From: Burkholderia sp. BCC0322
Lineage (GTDB): Bacteria > Pseudomonadota > Gammaproteobacteria > Burkholderiales > Burkholderiaceae
Length of the DNA: 64,000 nucleotides
Direction: 5' to 3'
NCBI RefSeq assembly: GCF_902833045.1
Contig: NZ_CADFDU010000003.1
Location: 248,001-312,000 of the forward strand
The notes under the pieces are model-generated. The model did no database searches. It was not told the DNA's origin and saw nothing but the letters and a program-made list of their open reading frames with translations. The position numbers and the translations under genes are program-made. This document shows positions 36,325 to 46,167 of the stretch, one piece after another (position 1 is the stretch's first letter; each line of letters starts with the position of its first letter).

Positions 36325-37593
36325 TCAAAGTCGACGGAATACCAGGCTGGCGTTGACACCGCCGAAGCCAAAGCCGTTGGAGATCGCATATTCCGTCGAT
36401 ATTCTGCGGGCCGATCCGGTGACAATGTCGATGCCTTCCGCTGCCGGGTCCGGCTGGGTCAGGTTCAGCGTGGGAGGCGCGAGCTGGTCGCGTAGCGCAA
36501 GGATGGTGAAAATCGCTTCCACGCCGCCGGCAGCCCCGAGCAAATGTCCTGTCGACGCCTTGGTGGCGGATACGGCAGGACCGCGACCCGTTCCAAATAC
36601 AGTCTTGATGGCCGCGAGTTCGCTGATGTCGCCGACGGGCGTGGACGTCGCATGGGCGTTCAAATGCCCGATCAGCCCAGGTTCGAGATTCGCCTGCCGG
36701 AGGGCGAGTTCCATCGCGCGTCGTCCCCCGGCACCGTCCTCGGGCGGCGACGTCATATGGTATGCATCGGCGCTCGTGCCATAACCGAGTACTTCGGCGA
36801 TAGGGGTGGCGCCGCGCCGCAGCGCGTGTTCCAGCTCTTCTATGACGAGCATGCCGGCGCCTTCTCCCATGACGAAGCCGTCTCGCCCGGCATCGAACGG
36901 GCGGGATGCCTGCGCCGGATGATCGTTGAAGCCCGCGGACAGGGTTCTTGCCGCGGCGAATGACCCCAGGCTGACGCGATCGATGCAGGCCTCCGCGCCG
37001 CCGCACACGGCAATGTCGGCTTCGCCCGCCCGGATCAGGCGCGCTGCGTCGCCAATTGCCTGTGCGCTGGCGGCACAGGCCGTAACCGGTGCGCCCAGGG
37101 GGCCGCGAAGGCCGTGGCGGATGGAGATGTGGCCAGCGGCCATGTTGGCCAGGAAGCTGGGTACGGTGAAGGGAGAAAGCCGTCTTGGCCCGCGCTCGTC
37201 AGTGATCCTGACGGCCTCTGCAATGGCACCGAACCCGCCCACGCCGGACGCTACGATGGTTGCGGTTCTTTCGCGAGCGTTTTCGGTTTCAGGTTGCCAC
37301 CCGGATTGGTGCAAGGCCTCTTGCGCGGCGCCCAGCGCAAACAGGCTGAACCGGTCCATCTTCTTCTGGTCCTTGGGTTCCGCCGCGAGGGCAGGATCGA
37401 ATCCCCATGGGCAGTCGGGCGTCAGCATGGGCACGACGCCGCCGACCTTAGACGCAATGCCGTCCGTGACGTCGTCGGGCAAGCCGACCACGCCCGAATG
37501 ACCCTTCAGGAGGCGGCTCCATACGGATTCGACTCCGCATCCCAATGGCGAAACCATACCCATGCCAGTCACGACAATGCGTCTCGTATTCAA
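36325..37593 (-). CDS. Beta-ketoacyl-ACP synthase II-like protein (FabF family), orphan
   Basis: A 422-residue condensing enzyme that would join malonyl-ACP to an acyl-ACP. The catalytic triad is complete: Cys173 in APVTACAASAQAIG, His314 in NAHATSTPVGD and His350 in KASTGHLLGAAGG. It starts with TTG at 37593, preceded by an excellent ribosome site (GAGGAG, 6 nt away). No ACP, malonyl transferase or reductase is adjacent, so this is not the housekeeping fab cluster. It is divergent from an AraC regulator with shared repeats, so it is probably inducible. G+C looks lower than in its neighbours, which may mean transfer. A role in remodelling fatty acids or in a special acyl product is possible. 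Confidence 0.85.
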   Translation of the reverse strand: MNTRRIVVTGMGMVSPLGCGVESVWSRLLKGHSGVVGLPDDVTDGIASKVGGVVPMLTPDCPWGFDPALAAEPKDQKKMDRFSLFALGAAQEALHQSGWQPETENARERTATIVASGVGGFGAIAEAVRITDERGPRRLSPFTVPSFLANMAAGHISIRHGLRGPLGAPVTACAASAQAIGDAARLIRAGEADIAVCGGAEACIDRVSLGSFAAARTLSAGFNDHPAQASRPFDAGRDGFVMGEGAGMLVIEELEHALRRGATPIAEVLGYGTSADAYHMTSPPEDGAGGRRAMELALRQANLEPGLIGHLNAHATSTPVGDISELAAIKTVFGTGRGPAVSATKASTGHLLGAAGGVEAIFTILALRDQLAPPTLNLTQPDPAAEGIDIVTGSARRISTEYAISNGFGFGGVNASLVFRRL

Positions 37594-37636
37594 ACGGTGC
37601 TCCTCTTTTGACTGATGAAGACAGGCCGCCGGAAAT

Positions 37637-37651
37637 TGGCGCAATGCGCCA
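37637..37651. promoter_or_regulatory. Palindrome in the FabF/AraC divergent region
   Basis: TGGCGCA-A-TGCGCCA is a perfect 7-1-7 palindrome. Its right arm shares TGCGCCA with the direct repeats further downstream, so it is probably bound by the same AraC protein. It lies about 44 bp upstream of the FabF-like start. Confidence 0.5.
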
Positions 37652-37732
37652 TCCGACACCTCTCACGAAGTTCAGAAATCACGAAGATAGCGCGTCAGTA
37701 TAGGGAGGAGGCCGGTCAGGAATTCGCACATC

Positions 37733-37759
37733 GCGCCAATTAATATGCAAAGTGCGCCA
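37733..37759 (+). promoter_or_regulatory. Direct repeats spaced 21 bp, AraC-type operator
   Basis: GCGCCA occurs at 37733-37738 and 37754-37759, exactly 21 bp apart, two turns of DNA on the same face, as in AraC-type half-sites. The second copy lies just before the AraC start codon, which suits autoregulation. Confidence 0.5.
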
Positions 37760-37772
37760 TAATGATTCAATC

Positions 37773-38804
37773 ATGAATCTGTCTCGCCAACGTCCTCTCA
37801 CAGTGTCGGCGCACTTCCTGCACGGGATGTTGCGTGCCGTTCGCACGCGTCACGGAGAAGACGCGGCGGCACAGGTCCTCGCGAGCGCTGCCATCCCGCT
37901 GTCTCTTCTCAATCAGCCCGATGCACGAATCACTCGGCAGCAGTACGTCGCGTTGTATCGGACGGTCGCGGCGTCGCTCGATGACGAGATGCTGGGGCTA
38001 TGGTCCAGGCCGATCAGGGGCGGCACGTTGAAGTACCTGATGCTCAGCCTGCTGGACGCGCCAACGGTATTGGTCGCGTTCAATCGTTTTGTTCGTTTCT
38101 GGAATTTGCTGCTGGATGACTACCGGTTGCAGATCTCGACGAAAAACGAGCGGGTGCGGCTGGCGCTGGTGGAGCGCACGCCTGGCACGCAGGTTACGCC
38201 CCTCGGACATGAGTTGATGATGAAGCTGGCTCACGGCATAGCGTCCTGGCTTCTGGGCAGGGAGCTTGCGCTGCAACGGGTCGAGTTCAGCTTCGCCAGG
38301 CCCAGGTATGTTGAAGACTATGCATTCCTGTTTCCCGGGGCGGTGCAGTTCGATGCCGGGATGACGAGCATCCATTTCTCGTACCAGGATTGCGCCGAGC
38401 CGTTCAAACGCGAAAAGCACGAACTATGGGCTTTCCTTAACGCCGCTCCTGGAGCCTGGACCTTCAGCGTATTTCATCACGGTTCGATTGTTGCCAAAAC
38501 ACGCGAGCATCTTGAACGGAATATCGCGCAGCCGCTGACGATACAGGCGCTCGCGCAGGCGTTGCATACGTCAGTACGCACGCTCAATCGTAGATTTGCG
38601 GAAGAAGGCACCCATTTCCAGCAGGTGAAAGACGGACTGCGGCGGGATATCGCGGTCGATCGGCTGACAAACTCGAACACCAGTGTGGCAGTGCTGGCAT
38701 TTGATCTTGGTTTTTCCGACGCCACCGGTTTTTGTCGCGCATTCAAACATTGGACCGGCAGCAGTCCTACGGATTATCGCAAGGATACGCGTCGAGACGA
38801 GTGA
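37773..38804 (+). CDS. AraC-family regulator with Arabinose_bd-like N-terminus
   Basis: A 343-residue regulator. Residues about 20-210 form the effector domain of the OruR/ArgR-like AraC group (AVRTRHGEDAAAQVL, RFVRFWNLLLDDYRL, LGHELMMKLAHG). Residues about 240-340 carry the two helix-turn-helix motifs (LTIQALAQALHTSVRTLNRR and SVAVLAFDLGFSDATGFCRA). I prefer the ATG at 37773 to the GTG at 37752, because the latter lies inside the operator repeats. It is divergent from the FabF-like gene and probably regulates it. Confidence 0.88.
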   Translation: MNLSRQRPLTVSAHFLHGMLRAVRTRHGEDAAAQVLASAAIPLSLLNQPDARITRQQYVALYRTVAASLDDEMLGLWSRPIRGGTLKYLMLSLLDAPTVLVAFNRFVRFWNLLLDDYRLQISTKNERVRLALVERTPGTQVTPLGHELMMKLAHGIASWLLGRELALQRVEFSFARPRYVEDYAFLFPGAVQFDAGMTSIHFSYQDCAEPFKREKHELWAFLNAAPGAWTFSVFHHGSIVAKTREHLERNIAQPLTIQALAQALHTSVRTLNRRFAEEGTHFQQVKDGLRRDIAVDRLTNSNTSVAVLAFDLGFSDATGFCRAFKHWTGSSPTDYRKDTRRDE

Positions 38805-38903
38805 CGAGCAGGCGTCGGGACTCGACAGCGCGTGTCGCATGGCCGGAGATGGCCGAGTGCCGGCAACCGGTGTACGTGTTTTCGGGAAATCCGCGAAGGA
38901 TGA

Positions 38904-38927
38904 AGAAAGGCCCTTGCGGGCCTTTCT
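38904..38927. terminator. Bidirectional terminator hairpin
   Basis: A perfect 10-bp stem (AGAAAGGCCC with GGGCCTTTCT) has a TTGC loop. It lies between the convergent AraC gene and phosphonate operon ends. T-rich ends on both sides suit termination from both directions. Confidence 0.75.
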
Positions 38928-38954
38928 CCGACTACGGAAGGGACGGGCGAACGC

Positions 38955-40019
38955 TTACCGCGTCAGTGCCGTGAACTCCTCCAGCAACCGATCGACGTCA
39001 GCCGCCTGGATCGCGCCCATCGTCGAGATGCGGAACAGCTCCTTCGACAACCCGCCTTGCCCCGCGTAGATCACGAAGCCACGCGCCTTCAGCCCGTCGT
39101 GCAGCGTCTCGTACGTCACGCCTTGCGGCAACCGGTACGCACGCAGCACAACCGACGATTCACCCTCCGGCAGCACCAGCGGCATCCCGCGCGCAGCCAG
39201 CCCGGCTTGCGCCTGATCGGCCAGCGCCTTGTAATGCGCATGCCGCGCACGCCAGCCACCGGCCTCGTCAAACTCCCGCAGCGCCTCGACAAGCGCGTAA
39301 TAGGCATGCACGGACGGCGTAAACGGCGTATTCCGCTGATCCTGCAGCTTCGCGAGACGGCCGAGGTCGAGGTAATACGTGCGACTTGCCGCTTTCGCGA
39401 GCGCGCTGCGACGCACGATCACGAACGCTGCACCCGGCACGCCGTGCAGGCACTTGTTCGCAGTCGCGGCAACGGCATCGATATCGCCACCGGCGAAATC
39501 GATCGCTTCCGCGCCGAAGCTGCTCACACCATCAACGAGCATTTTCACGCCGCGCGAGCGGCAGACTTCCGCGATCGCGCCGAGATCGTTCAAGCGACCC
39601 GTCGTCGTTTCATGATGAATCACCGCAACATGCGAGTACCCACCCGCATCGAGCCGTGCACCGATCTGCGCGAGATCGGGCGCCTGCATCCACTCATGCT
39701 TCAGCACGTCATGCGCGATGCCATATTGCGTCGCGATCTGCGTAATCCGCTCGCCATACACGCCGTTCTCGATCACGAGCAGCTTGCCGTCCTTCGGCAC
39801 GAGCGCCGCGATCATGCTCTCGACGGCTGCCGTACCCGAACCGGTCATCAGCACCGCCGCCCACTCGGCCGGATCAAGCTCGTACGCGGCGACGAGACGC
39901 GCCCGCGCCTCGTCCTGCAGATCGAAGAATTCGCTTTCGCGATGGCACAGGTCGGGTTGCAGCAGGCTGCGGCGCACGCGTTCGGTGAGCGTGACCGGGC
40001 CGGGATTCAGCAGCAGCAT
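38955..40019 (-). CDS. phnW: 2-Aminoethylphosphonate aminotransferase
   Basis: A 354-residue PLP enzyme (fold type I, class V) that interconverts phosphonoacetaldehyde and 2-aminoethylphosphonate. Family parts are LLLNPGPVTLTERVR, LMTGSGTAAVESM, HHETTTGRLND, DGVSSFGAEAIDF and the PLP lysine in ATANKCLHGVPG. In degradation it is found with phosphonatase, which is absent here. In this operon PEP mutase and phosphonopyruvate decarboxylase are present, so it should work in the synthetic direction. The ATG at 40019 shares one base with the upstream stop; a TTG at 40022 is the alternative. It is last in the operon, before a strong terminator. Confidence 0.92.
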   Translation of the reverse strand: MLLLNPGPVTLTERVRRSLLQPDLCHRESEFFDLQDEARARLVAAYELDPAEWAAVLMTGSGTAAVESMIAALVPKDGKLLVIENGVYGERITQIATQYGIAHDVLKHEWMQAPDLAQIGARLDAGGYSHVAVIHHETTTGRLNDLGAIAEVCRSRGVKMLVDGVSSFGAEAIDFAGGDIDAVAATANKCLHGVPGAAFVIVRRSALAKAASRTYYLDLGRLAKLQDQRNTPFTPSVHAYYALVEALREFDEAGGWRARHAHYKALADQAQAGLAARGMPLVLPEGESSVVLRAYRLPQGVTYETLHDGLKARGFVIYAGQGGLSKELFRISTMGAIQAADVDRLLEEFTALTR

Positions 40020-41200
40020 CAATGGGCTCCTTCAACGTGGGCTTCGGTCTGCGCGGCGCCGATGTGCCGCATCAGACGAGTCTTGACCTCGACCGGCGTG
40101 ACGGTCGGGCGGGGCAGGCCGTCGGGCACGCCGGTGCGGATCGCCAGGCGCACGAATTGCGTACCGTCGGCCGGCGCGGCCAGCGCCGTATCGAGCACGT
40201 CGAGCGTGTCGCCTTCGAATGCCGACGCATACCCGCACGCGGCAGCAACACCCGCGAACGAAACGTGTTGCGACACGGTGGCCTGGCCGCCCGTCGATTC
40301 GTGCGCGCCGTTGTCGAGCAGCACGTGCGTCAGGTTCGCCGGGCCGTAGGTGCCGAGCGTCGCGAACACGCCCATGCGCATCAGCGCGGCGCCGTCGCCG
40401 TCGATCGCGACGACACGCAGGTCGGGGCGCGCGAGCGCGAGGCCGAGCGCGAGCGGCGTCACGCAGCCCATCGAGCCGACCATGTACAGCTGGTTCGGGC
40501 GATCGTCGATCGCGTAGAGTTCGCGGCCGCAGAAACCGGTCGATGCGAGCACGACCGTCGAATCGACCGGCGTGTGCGCGATCACGCGCTGCAGCGCGTC
40601 CTGGCGGGTCGGCCAGGCGTCGGCCGACGCGGCGCGCGACGACGCTTGCGCCGCGACATGCGCGCGCGGCTTCGCCGCCGGGTTCGCTTTCAGTTCATAC
40701 GGCGCGACGCTGCCTTTCTGCATCACGAGCGCGTACGGGCGGCCGGTCGCGTCCATGTGCGCGATCGCGCGGTCGAGTGCCGGGCCGACCTGTTCCGGGT
40801 CGGTCGGGAACGTCTCCCACGGGATCTCCATCGTGTCGAGCATCGCGGGCGTGATCGGGCCCATCAGCGCGTGCTGCGGCTCGTCGGCCACGCCCGGCTG
40901 GCCGCGCCACGTGACGATCAGCAACTGCGGCAGGCGGAACGTCCACGTGAGCGACGTGAGCGGGCTCACCGCGTTGCCGAGCCCCGAGTTCTGCATCATC
41001 GCGATGCCGCGCTTGCCGCCGAGCGTCGCGCCCGCGATCAGCGCGACCGCGTCGCCTTCGTTCGCGGCCGACACGTAATTCAGCGTCGGGTCCTGCAGCA
41101 CGTAATTGATGAACGGCGTCAGGTACGAGCAGGGCACGCCCGCGTACCAGTCGAAACCGCGCGCGCGCGCGGCCTCGACGAACTGGGCCGCTTCGATCAT
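40019..41200 (-). CDS. aepY: Phosphonopyruvate decarboxylase
   Basis: A 393-residue thiamine diphosphate enzyme that decarboxylates phosphonopyruvate to phosphonoacetaldehyde, the irreversible step that pulls PEP into phosphonates. The pyrimidine half has [29 protein letters not shown] and [17 protein letters not shown]. The thiamine pyrophosphate motif is in the C-terminal half ([12 protein letters not shown], ending at [13 protein letters not shown]). It overlaps the PEP mutase gene by 4 bp (ATGA) and precedes the aminotransferase. Confidence 0.95.
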
Positions 41201-42885
41201 TGCGCGCCCCCGTTGGCGGTGCCCGGTTCGGACAGCGGCGTCTGGCCGTGCGCGAAGTCGCCCGCGCGGCGGAAGTCTTCGAGATCGTTGACGCCGCGCC
41301 AGTGGCCATGCACGTACTGCACCTCGATCTTCTCGCCGGCGGCGATCAGTTCGTTGAGCAGCGTGGGGATGTCGAGCGTATCGAAATCGTCGCGCGCCTG
41401 CAGCGTCGCGAGCATCGCCTTCAGGCGGTCGACACCGGCGCCGCGCACGTTCAGCAGGCCGATCCAGCGGCCGTGCGGCGTGCCTGCGGCAACGTCGCTC
41501 GACACACGCTGCAGATACGTTTTCTGGCCGAACAGGCCGCGATCGTCCTCGGCCGTGCAGAGCGCGAAATCGCGCACGCTCTGGTTGGTCGGCTCGGTGA
41601 GCGACGAATCGACCACCACGCTGAATTCGGCCTCGCTCTCCGCGAGGTCGCGCAGGATGTAGCTGCGGAACAGCAGGTCGCCGTACGAGATCACGGTGTC
41701 GCCGGTCAGGCGTTCGGCCGCGCATGCGAGCGACGCGAGTTCGCCCGTCTGCGCGTGACGTTCGTTGACGACGAGCTTGATGCCCGACGTGTCGATCGCG
41801 TCGGCACGATAGCCGCCGACCACGGTGATGTCGTTCACGCCGTGCTTCTTGAAGCCGTCGACGAGCCAGCGCAGCAGCGGCTTGCCGGCGACCGGCAGCA
41901 TGACCTTGGGTTTGTCTTCGGTGACGGCTTCGAGGCCCTTGCCGCGGCTCGCGGCGAGCACGATCGCCGCGTTCGACGCGCGCGACGACGACGACAGGTA
42001 GATGCGCTCGGCTGCCGAGTATTCGTCGGCGTCCTGCAGGCGGAAGATCTCGTTGACCGATGCGACGCGGTCCTCGACGTTGATCAGCGTTTCGTTCTCG
42101 TGGATCTCGCGTGCGGTCGCCTGCATCGCGGATGCCGATGCACGGATCAGGTGGTTCGCCCAGATCACGGTGCTGATGCCGGCCTGACGGAATACGTCGG
42201 TCGGCGTGCTGTAGTACTTGGTCGGCACGATCACGAGCGGCGCCTTGCCGCTCCATTCGCGTGCGAACTGCAGGATCTCGTCCGGGCGCGACAGCTTGCT
42301 GTGGATCAGGATCGCGTCGGCGCCGGCTTCCGCGTACGCGTTCGCGCGGCGCAGCGCCTCGTCCATCCCCCAGCCCGCGATCAGCGCTTCGACGCGCGCG
42401 ACGATCGAGAAGTCGGGATCGGTCTGCGAATCCTTGCCGGCCTTGATCTTGCCGCAGAACTCGTCGATCTCGGCGAGCGGCTGGCGTTCGCCGTCGATGA
42501 AGCTGTTCGTCTTCGGGAACTGCTTGTCCTCGATGCAGACGCCCGCGATGCCGCGCTGCTCGAGTTTCTTCACGAGGCGGCGCACGTTGTTGAAGTTGCC
42601 GTAGCCGGTGTCGCCGTCGAGCAGGATCGGCAGATCGCTCGCGTCGGCCATGAATTCCAGCACGTCGACGACCTGGGTCCAGCTGGCTTCGTTGTTGTCG
42701 CGCACGCCGAATTGCGCGGAAATCGCGAGGCCCGACGCCCAGATGCCCTTGAAGCCGGCTTCGCGGACGATCCGCGCGGACAGGCCGTTGTGCGCTTCCA
42801 TCAGGAATTCGAGGTCGCTGCTGACGAGCATGCGGCGCAGGCGCGCGCTGCGCGATTCGGTGAAATTGGGTTCGCGTGCGTTCAT
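41197..42885 (-). CDS. aepX: PEP mutase fused to a nucleotidyltransferase domain
   Basis: A 562-residue bifunctional protein. Residues 1-300 are PEP phosphomutase, which turns phosphoenolpyruvate into phosphonopyruvate and makes the C-P bond; the diagnostic EDK-x5-NS motif is [10 protein letters not shown] at 119-128. Residues about 306-562 are a nucleotidyltransferase fold ([30 protein letters not shown]-like, VISYGDLLF). It should activate the phosphonate with CTP, as PntC does for 2-aminoethylphosphonate. The usual LAAGxGxR start is changed to LAASRGKG; the DKPK lysine is kept. It overlaps both neighbours by 4 bp. Confidence 0.93.
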
Positions 42886-43649
42886 CGTGCGACTCCTGCG
42901 GTGGTGCGTTGAATCAGGGGGAGGATTTCTTGCGTGGCGCGAGCGACGTCGTTCGGGAAGTCGATCTCGATCCACGGTGAACCGGTGACGTCGGCGACGT
43001 CGAACGAATGACCGCCTTCGAGCAGCAGGTCGCGTACGGCTTCCTCGTGCGGCATGTTCGCGCGGCCGCTGTCGACGTAGCCCGCGACGATCGCCGCGAG
43101 GCGGCGCGCGGTGCCTTCGGTGAAGCGGAAGAAGCCGACCGATTCGCCGATCGTGTCGTAGTCGAGGTCGACCGCGAGCTGCTTGCGCAGTTCGACCGGC
43201 ACGCCGTTCTTCAGGCACAGCTTGACGGGTTCGTCGCCGGCCTCGAAGTCGCGGTCGATCAGCAGGCGGTCGACCGCCTTGTCGGCATCGGCCACCAGCG
43301 CGTGCAGGATGTTCTCGTCATACAGCACGTCGGCGTCCATCAGCAGCACGTCGCCGTCGCGCGTCATCGCATCGGCGACGGTATGCACGGTCAGCACGCT
43401 GCCGAGGTCGTAGCGGTCGTTGATCACGATCTCGGCCTGGCGGCCGAGGCGCTTCAATTCCTGCTCGACCTTCCCGGACTGGAAGCCCAGCCCGAGCACG
43501 ATCTCGTCGACGCCCGCGGCATCGAGCACGCGCAGATGGCGCTCGAGCAGCGAAACGTCGTCGAAGCGCAGCAGGCACTTCGGGAACTGCGCCTCGGGCG
43601 GTTGTTGCAGGCGCAAGCCGAGGCCTGCCGCAAGAATGATGGCTCGCAT
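42882..43649 (-). CDS. Stand-alone nucleotidyltransferase (phosphocholine cytidylyltransferase-like)
   Basis: A 255-residue sugar/choline nucleotidyltransferase-fold protein. The N-terminus [20 protein letters not shown] and then FPKCLLRFD is the full nucleotide-binding signature; [16 protein letters not shown] holds the metal-binding aspartates. Relatives such as LicC make CDP-choline. It is the second activating enzyme in the operon, besides the domain fused to PEP mutase, so one may load 2-aminoethylphosphonate and the other a further alcohol or head group. The ATG at 43649 begins the signature; a start at 43664 would add five residues. Confidence 0.88.
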
Positions 43650-43685
43650 GGGTTCTCCAACCAAAAAGCCGGCGGATCTGAACGA

Positions 43686-44687
43686 TCAGTCGGCGAGCGG
43701 CTGCGGCGCACGGCGCCGCTGCCAGTTTCTTTCACTGAAATGCAGATAGAGCAGGCCGGGCAGGCCGAGCGCGAGTTCGCGCGCGCGTTTCGCAAGCGAC
43801 AGCGCGAGCGCCGCGTCGGGCGGCAGTCCGACCAGCGGCGCGAGGAGCAGGTAGCCGCCTTCCTGCGCGCCGAGCGAGCCCGGGATCGCGAAGGCCGCGC
43901 CACGAATGGCCTGGCCGACGCTCTCGAGCAGCAGTGCGTCGAGCCAGCTCACCGGGTGCCCGAGGAAGTGCAGCGCGAGCCACACTTCCGCGGTGCCGAC
44001 GATCCAGCCGACGAGACTCAATGCGAACGTCTTCGCGACCTTCGCACGATCGCGGTACAGCGTGCCGACCGCATCGTCGATCGCGTCGGCGCGGGTGGCC
44101 AGCGACGACCAGTCGCGCGGGCCGAGCAGCTTCGACGCGAGGCGCAGGCCGCGGCCGAACAGCCCGCGCCGCTGCGCCACGTAGAACAGCGCGGCGAGGG
44201 TGCCGAGCACGCCGGTGGCGATCAATGCGGGCGTGCGCAGGTGCGCGACCGATTCGTGCGTCGCATACAGGCTGAACGCGGCGATGCCGATCAGCGCGAA
44301 CGCCATCTGCGCGAGCGCCTGCATCGTCGTGCTGACGGTGACGGCCGCCGCCGCGTCGGCCATCCGCGTGCCGCGCTGCGCGAGGTGGCGCACCATCAGC
44401 ACGGGGCCGCCGATCTGCCCGGCGGGCAGCAGGCTGTTCACCGATTCGCCGACCCAGCGCGCGCGCAGCGCGTTGCCGAGCTCGGCGCCCGGCTGGCCGG
44501 GGCGGAACATCACGGTGATCGCCATCGCGTCGATCACGAGCGGCACGACGTGGAACGCCGCGACGAGCGCGAGCCCCCAGCCGGCCGCGAGGAATGTGGA
44601 CGCGACCGCGCCGACGCCCTGCCATGCAAGGAGTGCGACGAAGAGTGCGGTCCCGAGGGACAGCAGGATGAGGCCGGCGCGCGTCAT
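43686..44687 (-). CDS. Flippase-like membrane protein (LPG synthase TM domain family)
   Basis: A 333-residue membrane protein with about eight helices of the lysylphosphatidylglycerol synthase transmembrane family, without the synthase catalytic domain. Family marks are WVGESVNSLLPAGQIGGP and the AIRGAAFAIPGSLGAQEGG region near 265. In MprF this part flips the modified lipid to the outer leaflet; a similar family is found with hopanoid genes. In this operon it is a natural candidate to move a phosphonolipid or its precursor. It shares an ATGA overlap with the oxygenase gene. Its transport role is inferred, not visible. Confidence 0.85.
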   Translation of the reverse strand: MTRAGLILLSLGTALFVALLAWQGVGAVASTFLAAGWGLALVAAFHVVPLVIDAMAITVMFRPGQPGAELGNALRARWVGESVNSLLPAGQIGGPVLMVRHLAQRGTRMADAAAAVTVSTTMQALAQMAFALIGIAAFSLYATHESVAHLRTPALIATGVLGTLAALFYVAQRRGLFGRGLRLASKLLGPRDWSSLATRADAIDDAVGTLYRDRAKVAKTFALSLVGWIVGTAEVWLALHFLGHPVSWLDALLLESVGQAIRGAAFAIPGSLGAQEGGYLLLAPLVGLPPDAALALSLAKRARELALGLPGLLYLHFSERNWQRRRAPQPLAD

Positions 44688-45490
44688 GACCCGGTCGTGC
44701 GTCGCGTCGCCAGTTGCTTGAACACCTGGCGGAAACCGAAATACGCGATCGCGTCCTTCATGTTCGAGATGAAGCGCTTCCACGGCCGCATGCCGGGGTT
44801 CGTCACGTATTCGAAGGTGAGCGACACGCGCATCTCGTTCTGGCCGAGCGGCGTGATGCGGTGGCGCAGCTTGTCGCCGTCGAACAGCACGATGCCGCCG
44901 TCGGCGATCTGGACGGAGCCCGGTTCGTCGGCCACGTCCGGATTGCGCGTGTGCAGCTCGTAGTCGAGCCGGCACGACGATTCGTCGATCACGCCGATCA
45001 GCAGCGTGTAGCGGCGGCCGTCGTAGTACGACGTGTCGTAGTGCCAGCCGATGTGGTCGCCGGGCTTCGTGTAGTAATACAGTGCGTATGCGTGCGGATC
45101 GTCGTCCGGCGACAGCATCAGCTTGTCGCCCGTGACTTTCTCGAGGAAAGAGATGAGCGCCTTCGAGCGATACAGTTCGGCGATGTACGGCGCCTGCTCG
45201 TCGATCGTATGGCGGCTCACGCTGCCGCCCTGCTTGTGGCCGGGCAGGTAATTGCGGTTCAGGCCGGCCTGCATCGCGCGGGCGGCATCGGCCAGCTTCG
45301 CGTGCGCGTCGGCCGGCAGGAATGCGTCGAGGTACAGGAACGAGCCCTGGCGCGTGTAGTCGCCGCGCAGGCGCTCGAGGTCGAGGCGGCCGACGCAGTC
45401 GGCCACGGTGCGATCGGGATCGGCCACGGCCGCGCGCACGGGCGCGGGGCGTGCCGGGCTCAGCACGGAGTCGTCGCGCGTGCTAGTCAT
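44684..45490 (-). CDS. Non-heme Fe(II)/2-oxoglutarate oxygenase, probable hydroxylase
   Basis: A 268-residue Fe/2-oxoglutarate-dependent oxygenase, similar in layout to the BesD/HalD halogenase group. The metal ligands are His150 and Asp152 in GWHYDTSYYDG and His210 in KLRHRITPL; Arg221 should hold 2-oxoglutarate. Halogenases replace the aspartate with Gly or Ala to make room for chloride. Here it is Asp, so hydroxylation is expected, not chlorination. In the phosphonate operon the obvious target is 2-aminoethylphosphonate or its lipid, giving a 1-hydroxy head group. It overlaps neighbours by 4 bp on both sides. Confidence 0.85.
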   Translation of the reverse strand: MTSTRDDSVLSPARPAPVRAAVADPDRTVADCVGRLDLERLRGDYTRQGSFLYLDAFLPADAHAKLADAARAMQAGLNRNYLPGHKQGGSVSRHTIDEQAPYIAELYRSKALISFLEKVTGDKLMLSPDDDPHAYALYYYTKPGDHIGWHYDTSYYDGRRYTLLIGVIDESSCRLDYELHTRNPDVADEPGSVQIADGGIVLFDGDKLRHRITPLGQNEMRVSLTFEYVTNPGMRPWKRFISNMKDAIAYFGFRQVFKQLATRRTTGS

Positions 45491-46167
45491 TTGGAAGCCT
45501 GGATTTCGGTTGGATTCTGAGCAACGTTGCCGCGCCGGACGATGCGCCACCAGTCGATCACGACCCAGGCGGCGAACAGCGGGGCGCCGATCGACGCCGC
45601 GAGCAGGAACGGCTCGACGCCGTCGAACAGCGTCACGAGCGGCAGCAGGTAAAGTACGTCTTCGGTTTCGAAGCCGCCGGCGAATGCCTGCTTGGTGCCG
45701 GCCTTGCCGGCGAACGATTCGATCCGCATGCGCAGGAAGAAGATCAGCGCGACGGCCGCGCCGGCCACCGCACCGAGCAGCACCGGCGACGCGGCCATCT
45801 GGCCGCCCTGGGCGACGATACCGACGCCCATGCTGACGAACAGCGCGACCGTGACGAGCGCGTCTGCCGCGAGGTCATAAAAATGACCGATCTTGCTCGA
45901 CTTGCCGCTGATGCGTGCGAGCTCGCCATCGGTGTGGTCGACGAAGTTCGACAGCACGATCAGGAACGCGCCTGCGTTGCTCCAGCCGAAGCCGCCGTGC
46001 GCGAGGCACCAGGCGCCGGCGAGGCCGATCAGCAGACGGACGGTAGTGAGGTGATTCGGGGTGACGGGCGTGTCGACCAGCGGCCGGACAAGCGAGCGCG
46101 CGAGCCGCGCATCCCAGGTGCGTGGCAGGGGCGGTTCGGAACGTGTGGCGGTTTTTCTTTGGTCCAT
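45487..46167 (-). CDS. CDP-alcohol phosphatidyltransferase-family protein
   Basis: A 226-residue inner-membrane enzyme with about six helices. It carries the complete CDP-alcohol phosphotransferase motif, D-x2-DG-x2-AR-x8-G-x3-D-x3-D: Asp77, Asp80, Gly81, Arg85, Gly94, Asp98 and Asp102. The family swaps CMP for an alcohol to form a phosphodiester or phosphonoester lipid. In this operon the CMP donor is probably CMP-2-aminoethylphosphonate and the acceptor an alcohol such as diacylglycerol, so it would make the phosphonolipid. It is the first gene of the seven-gene operon. The start follows a short leader without a clear ribosome site. Confidence 0.88.
   Translation of the reverse strand: MDQRKTATRSEPPLPRTWDARLARSLVRPLVDTPVTPNHLTTVRLLIGLAGAWCLAHGGFGWSNAGAFLIVLSNFVDHTDGELARISGKSSKIGHFYDLAADALVTVALFVSMGVGIVAQGGQMAASPVLLGAVAGAAVALIFFLRMRIESFAGKAGTKQAFAGGFETEDVLYLLPLVTLFDGVEPFLLAASIGAPLFAAWVVIDWWRIVRRGNVAQNPTEIQASK

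Follow-up and report, generated by a model that had tools for sequence, protein, structure and literature searches.

A seven-gene aminoethylphosphonate operon of Burkholderia and its possible link to hopanoids

The stretch of DNA analysed here (the window, 64,000 nucleotides of contig NZ_CADFDU010000003.1 from Burkholderia sp. BCC0322) carries on its minus strand, at 38955-46167, a seven-gene operon for 2-aminoethylphosphonate (AEP), which we consider a probable source of AEP-bearing hopanoids. A preliminary description, made from the nucleotide letters, had reported this operon; its coordinates proved exact, and the families it named were borne out, phosphoenolpyruvate (PEP) mutase (PepM), phosphonopyruvate decarboxylase (Ppd) and 2-aminoethylphosphonate aminotransferase (AEPT) scoring over curated cut-offs and NTP_transf_3 (twice), CDP-OH_P_transf and HalD lying above the Pfam gathering scores (Table 1). 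The operon holds eight functions in seven genes because one nucleotidyltransferase (NT2) is fused to PepM, the other (NT1) being free. As had been claimed, five of the six gene joins overlap, by 4, 4, 4, 4 and 1 bp, the sixth being a 36-bp gap between the HpnL and NT1 genes. The EDK-x5-NS motif of PepM and the full motif D..DG..AR.{8}G...D...D of the CDP-alcohol phosphotransferase (CDP-AP) are likewise present, and the flippase-like membrane protein scores above the Pfam gathering score of LPG_synthase_TM and over the cut-off of TIGR03476.

Table 1. Features of the operon and its downstream end in the window.
Feature	Coordinates	Strand	Evidence
CDP-alcohol phosphotransferase (CDP-AP), 226 aa	45487..46167	-	PF01066 54 bits; full motif; profile with PepM and cyclase
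Fe(II)/2-oxoglutarate oxygenase, 268 aa, BesD/HalD superfamily, HxD	44684..45490	-	PF23169 HalD 49.8 bits
HpnL-type flippase-like membrane protein, 333 aa	43686..44687	-	TIGR03476 374.5 bits vs cut-off 195.65; profile positions 1-318 of 318
NT1, free MobA-like nucleotidyltransferase, 255 aa, proposed AEP cytidylyltransferase	42882..43649	-	6pd1 E 1.9e-21 (profile)
PepM-NT2 fusion gene, whole	41197-42885	-	PepM and second nucleotidyltransferase
PEP mutase domain of PepM-NT2	41989..42885	-	TIGR02320 409 bits (cut-off 320); PDB 1m1b E 3e-132
NT2, nucleotidyltransferase domain fused to PepM	41197..41988	-	PF12804 50.6 bits; LicC 1jyk E 3.3e-18 (profile)
Phosphonopyruvate decarboxylase (Ppd), 393 aa	40019..41200	-	TIGR03297 488 bits vs 312.5
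2-Aminoethylphosphonate aminotransferase (AEPT), 354 aa	38955..40019	-	TIGR03301 398 bits vs 360.8; ATG at 40019, alternative TTG at 40022
12-pair terminator-like hairpin right after last gene	38902..38929	-	fold z-score -4.08; 0/200 shuffles equally stable

Since PepM, Ppd and AEPT all pass their curated cut-offs, the operon is predicted to synthesise AEP. NT1 is somewhat better placed than NT2 as the enzyme acting on AEP, because among solved structures it comes closest to 6pd1, the PntC/aminotransferase of T. denticola, because the residues contacting the AEP amine in the tested enzyme (Glu104 and Glu196) correspond to its Asp105 and Glu202, and because none of the 9 aligned NT2 rows has the Arg that LicC carries in GxGxR. 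Both D105 and E202 are invariant in 11/11 aligned rows of NT1, and LicC has Asp at both positions. NT2 has an Arg three residues before the GxGxR position. The biochemically tested AEP cytidylyltransferases, as far as the accessible text of their report goes, are free or transaminase-fused and come from clusters also holding a PepM-fused domain (PMC6697681). NT1 adjoins PepM in 19 of the 20 fetched gammaproteobacterial loci, the exception (L123) having PepM at the contig start. The best NCBIfam match of CDP-AP is archaetidylinositol phosphate synthase, at 60.5 bits, under the cut-off of 180.

In halogenases of the BesD/HalD type, Gly or Ala replaces the HxD aspartate. The window oxygenase belongs to the same superfamily but keeps HxD, is of the hydroxylase type and reaches only 29.9 bits against the BesD cut-off of 450. 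Its residues H150, D152, H210 and R221 are invariant in 9/9 and 17/17 aligned rows, and a halogenase role was rejected because all 17 retain D152. Since HxD...H and the Arg are retained, hydroxylation is expected, and the enzyme is probably a hydroxylase. This step would be accessory, because just five (G001, G317, G380, G463 and G630) of the 21 gammaproteobacterial genomes holding both PepM and squalene-hopene cyclase showed the oxygenase.

Conservation of the operon was followed mainly through the oxygenase, which turned up in 37 of 61 relatives, all of them congeners, and across the Burkholderiaceae in 145 of 249 genomes (11 of 25 genera). Among 20 loci hand-chosen for diversity from these 145 genomes, 18, from 10 genera, hold the full set of seven with gene order unchanged, more than chance would give, and the other two, both of genus g44 (Paraburkholderia), hold only CDP-AP, the oxygenase, HpnL and NT1. 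Two other sets of 20 loci used in the analysis were likewise picked by hand. The window CDP-AP shares 96.9% identity with the B. arboris enzyme, so that the strain probably belongs to the cepacia complex; the closest of the genomes compared has 29% of sampled words in common with the window. Paraburkholderia has a divided operon, with these four genes at one site (L050, L051, L082, L083) and PepM-NT2, Ppd and mostly AEPT at another (L077-L081, L085); six fetched g44 loci carry PepM-NT2-Ppd and five of them AEPT too. An MFS transporter follows the four-gene block in L050 and L051. The separation of the two blocks would suit a hopanoid head-group module made of CDP-AP, oxygenase, HpnL and NT1 that takes other phospho-alcohols (e.g., phosphoethanolamine), with AEP as one donor among several, and so would the second CDP-AP of a different type that adjoins NT1 or the oxygenase in some clusters, as well as the three g44 genomes that have the module genes and no PepM over the cut-off. 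Such a broad-donor module nevertheless seems improbable to us: PepM scores over the cut-off in 22 of the 26 g44 genomes tested, and in 18/19 CDP-AP-positive gammaproteobacterial genomes outside Burkholderia versus 1/16 cyclase-positive, CDP-AP-negative ones.

The membrane protein of the operon scores as HpnL, and hopanoid genes were therefore examined. HpnL paralogues are common in Burkholderiaceae (three in G001) and also occur without this operon, so that TIGR03476 appears to be a broader family than its name implies; given such widespread paralogues, HpnL membership was discarded as proof of a hopanoid link. Curated cut-offs were exceeded by HpnA, HpnB, HpnC, HpnD, HpnE, HpnG, HpnH, HpnN, the cyclase and dxs from Pandoraea (G205) and other Burkholderiaceae loci. 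In G205, dxs, hpnN, an HpnM-like gene and ispH come after the operon, with the cyclase, hpnE, hpnD and hpnC farther on. The annotated plasmid pBRH01 of Mycetohabitans rhizoxinica repeats this arrangement, as operon - dxs - HpnN-type MMPL - ispH - hpnH - hpnA - glycosyltransferase - shc over about 20 kb, its HpnM-like protein reaching 74.9 bits, below the 160 set for HpnM. In 12 Burkholderiaceae genomes a distance of 17 to 38 kb separates the oxygenase from the cyclase, these being pairs noticed on one contig rather than all pairs. On a plasmid of the alphaproteobacterium Roseomonas marmotae, CDP-AP, AEPT, HpnL (over the cut-off), aepY, aepX and NT1 stand among hpnA, hpnC, hpnD, hpnE, shc, hpnH and ispH.

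Outside the family the two sets of genes are more closely interwoven, recurrent gammaproteobacterial gene orders being hpnH - AEPT - Ppd - NT2 - PepM - NT1 - HpnL - hpnA - CDP-AP - hpnN - hpnG - cyclase in L115 and hpnN - CDP-AP - hpnA - HpnL - oxygenase - NT1 - PepM - NT2 - Ppd - AEPT in L116. Overall, hpnA, hpnB, hpnG, hpnH, hpnN or the cyclase lies on the same contig as PepM, at about 10 kb or less, in 11 of the 21 gammaproteobacterial genomes with both PepM and cyclase, and in a twelfth (G374) an NT1 gene truncated by the contig end stands beside hpnA, hpnN and the cyclase. No hpn gene was found near PepM at the fetched loci of G351, G385, G408, G422, G463, G535, G589 and G620, several of whose contigs are short, nor was one seen by PepM in G001, where PepM and cyclase are on separate contigs. 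Neither an hpn gene nor CDP-AP was found in the six gammaproteobacterial genomes with PepM and no cyclase; four of these have a distant PepM (34-36% identity), and G501 and G656 have a fused PepM but an NT1 of only 27-29%. A further set of 80 loci, biased in make-up because they are the 80 out of 439 that most resemble the oxygenase of a gammaproteobacterial locus (L119), has hpn neighbours in 26, namely 12/12 loci from gammaproteobacterial metagenome-assembled genomes (MAGs) and 14/16 Pandoraea loci; NT1 adjoins PepM in 11 of these 12 MAG loci. Some clusters (L117, L119, L135, L136) hold two CDP-alcohol phosphotransferases, one adjoining hpnN and the other, of a separate clade, adjoining NT1 or the oxygenase. 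Two MAG contigs labelled Klebsiella pneumoniae (L146, L150) bear a hopanoid-phosphonate cluster resembling those of the gammaproteobacterial MAGs, and their label or binning is probably wrong.

This recurrence of the hpn neighbourhood, with varied gene orders, in Gammaproteobacteria, Burkholderiaceae and one alphaproteobacterium speaks against the view that the phosphonate ends up on a surface glycan or in a diffusible product, with the operon near hopanoid genes through descent only. That view draws on the characterised stand-alone PntC enzymes, whose clusters, according to the accessible text, include LicD-like or glycosyltransferase genes (PMC6697681). The Pnt pathway described there resembles the window in its PepM fused to PF12804, its free second nucleotidyltransferase and its AEP as activated group, but the operon holds a CDP-alcohol phosphotransferase in place of LicD-like or glycosyltransferase genes, and family scans returned no LicD-like or glycan gene within it. 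We regard a glycan or diffusible product as very improbable.

A second line of evidence comes from the distribution of CDP-AP among 369 Gammaproteobacteria, scored at a presence threshold of E 1e-15 that we chose. CDP-AP is present in 19 of the 21 genomes with both PepM and cyclase, in 1 of 31 with cyclase only (G297, 75% complete), in 0/6 with PepM only and in 0/311 with neither, and the 20 positive genomes span 12 families. CDP-AP is associated with cyclase (20/20, p 2e-19), PepM with cyclase (21/27 vs 31/342, p 4e-15) and CDP-AP with PepM (p 1e-24); these p-values ignore kinship among the operon-bearing lineages, which are related, and so overstate independence, a first point to be held against a hopanoid product. 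Among the 249 Burkholderiaceae (matches at E 0.001), 145 genomes hold oxygenase and cyclase, none the oxygenase only, 33 the cyclase only and 71 neither. Outside this family the cyclase scores over the cut-off in 22/22 tested oxygenase-positive genomes, 14 of which are cyanobacteria. Counted in the relatives' genomes, the cyclase thus accompanies 145/145 oxygenases and 20/20 CDP-APs: the operon is dispensable for hopanoids, yet it is encountered only alongside them. HpnH was of no use as a discriminator, being over the cut-off in 49/52 cyclase-positive and 19/20 CDP-AP-positive genomes.

This distribution bears directly on the acceptor. The preliminary description had proposed an AEP lipid, and AEP synthesis, CTP activation and CDP-alcohol transfer to a lipid do still fit the genes best; what we refine is the acceptor, for which a hopanoid appears likelier than diacylglycerol, because relatives of the operon sit in hopanoid clusters and CDP-AP tracks the joint presence of PepM and cyclase. 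With an ordinary phosphonolipid, CMP-AEP and diacylglycerol would yield the phosphono counterpart of phosphatidylethanolamine, perhaps bearing 1-hydroxy-AEP, and the link to hopanoid genes would reflect a shared role in the outer membrane. The intact CDP-alcohol motif is compatible with such a product, and a phosphonolipid is what has been proposed in print for the homologous clusters of Nostoc and Burkholderia (PMC5987646). Another source cites 1-hydroxy-AEP as occurring in the lipids of Bdellovibrio stolpii and as postulated for other bacteria, the Bdellovibrio lipid being, by its cited title, a sphingolipid and no hopanoid (PMC8154272). Diacylglycerol, however, is universal, yet CDP-AP occurs in 0/317 cyclase-negative genomes of the 369, including six with PepM, and its gene is frequently placed between hpnA and hpnN. 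An ordinary phosphonolipid strikes us as unlikely.

The oxygenase also reaches Nostoc and some other cyanobacteria, where CDP-AP is present in 12 of 14 loci and PepM lies within 10 kb in 8 of 14. In 10 of the 14, an HpnP or HpnP-like gene stands upstream of CDP-AP or the oxygenase (e.g., L137:7342-8991), a point in favour of the hopanoid reading. The encoded protein, tested for L137, has B12-binding, radical SAM and DUF4070 domains, the set given for HpnP and HpnP-like proteins in the accessible text of PMC10697835.

Our favoured reading, which we hold with moderate confidence, is that the operon makes AEP and attaches it to a hopanoid. From the observed gene identities and gene order, the synteny with hpn genes in relatives and the co-occurrence, we infer the chemistry, the acceptor and the transport direction as follows. 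PepM, Ppd and AEPT would convert phosphoenolpyruvate to AEP, which one nucleotidyltransferase, more likely NT1, would activate with CTP to CMP-AEP. The membrane-bound CDP-AP would then transfer the AEP group to a hopanoid hydroxyl, probably that of a C35 bacteriohopanepolyol, with loss of CMP. In lineages having the oxygenase, the Fe/2OG enzyme would hydroxylate the head group (as 1-hydroxy-AEP), and HpnL may carry the lipid across the inner membrane. On a wider scale, with chances that we see as evenly balanced, AEP-hopanoids, with a head group that is C-P-bonded and in some lineages hydroxylated, could be a standard component of the envelope in Burkholderia and many of its relatives, in scattered families of Gammaproteobacteria and in certain Acetobacteraceae and Nostoc; most of the gammaproteobacterial PepM capacity (21 of 27 PepM-positive genomes among the 369) would then serve hopanoid producers, and CDP-AP would be an unnamed hopanoid gene joining both pathways.

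Several further observations weigh against a hopanoid product. The window itself has no match to twelve hpn, dxs and ispH references, and in the 80-locus set hpn genes are found at 0/37 other Burkholderiaceae loci, with none near the operon in Burkholderia itself, at 0/14 cyanobacterial loci (HpnP-like genes aside) and at the single Nitrococcus locus (0/1). Six of the 14 cyanobacterial loci are without PepM within 10 kb. The g44 genomes G124, G263 and G284 hold the first four genes with no PepM over the cut-off, and G195, which has a partial oxygenase only, is also without one. Two genomes (G453, G620) hold PepM and cyclase and no CDP-AP at 1e-15, the CDP-AP-positive G485 has no HpnH over the cut-off, and the cyclase of G206 was seen only as weak pieces (E 1.9e-82). 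HpnL is not specific, since it scores over the cut-off in 48/50 Burkholderiaceae, 28 of these among the 30 without the oxygenase. Finally, searches of the open-licence literature, in which several hits were assessed by title, brought up no phosphonate hopanoid.

The phosphonolipid reading is largely in print, and as far as our searches of the open-licence literature reach, the proposed hopanoid acceptor is new for Burkholderia. A 2018 paper on a lichen Nostoc draws in its Fig. 7, adapted from Yu et al. 2013, a homologous Burkholderia cluster with a phosphonolipid pathway, and its accessible part lists CTP-APT, OG-Fe(II), NTPT, pepM, ppd, AEPT and hpnL, all present in the window (PMC5987646). 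Its main text has 0 occurrences of 'hopan' and makes no tie to hopanoid genes; Nostoc loci with all cluster genes except hpnL were recovered in our analysis. For Roseomonas, cyclase-linked PEP mutase clusters, comparable to those found here, led in 2021 to the suggestion of an 'undiscovered terpene-phosphonate' (PMC8776678). That article covers Acetobacteraceae, and its accessible text names neither the phosphotransferase nor a Burkholderia link; R. marmotae additionally has CDP-AP, HpnL and NT1. Apart from it, our searches of the open-licence literature gave no paper joining hopanoids with AEP or PEP mutase. HpnA, HpnB and HpnL are described, in the available portion of a further source, as still without assigned functions (PMC12583986). 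Cell-surface phosphonate clusters are common in bacteria and their acceptors mostly unidentified; if our reading holds, an acceptor and its transferase would be assigned for one kind. Hopanoids being the bacterial counterparts of sterols, the product would be a membrane lipid of a kind not yet described and a new hopanoid type, possibly overlooked by lipid surveys, with a bearing on hopanoid biomarkers and the phosphorus cycle.

Around the operon, the hairpin behind the last gene (Table 1) was absent from the output of the consensus scan, and a promoter-like match upstream was discarded as evidence, with 1 found against 0.7 expected. An Rfam search of the window gave 0 matches. A reading of the product from the local flanks was likewise set aside, as the neighbours (AraC regulator, FabF-type synthase, CoA-transferase) name no product. 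Directly downstream of the operon, 36325-38804 encodes a FabF-type beta-ketoacyl-ACP synthase and an AraC-type regulator.

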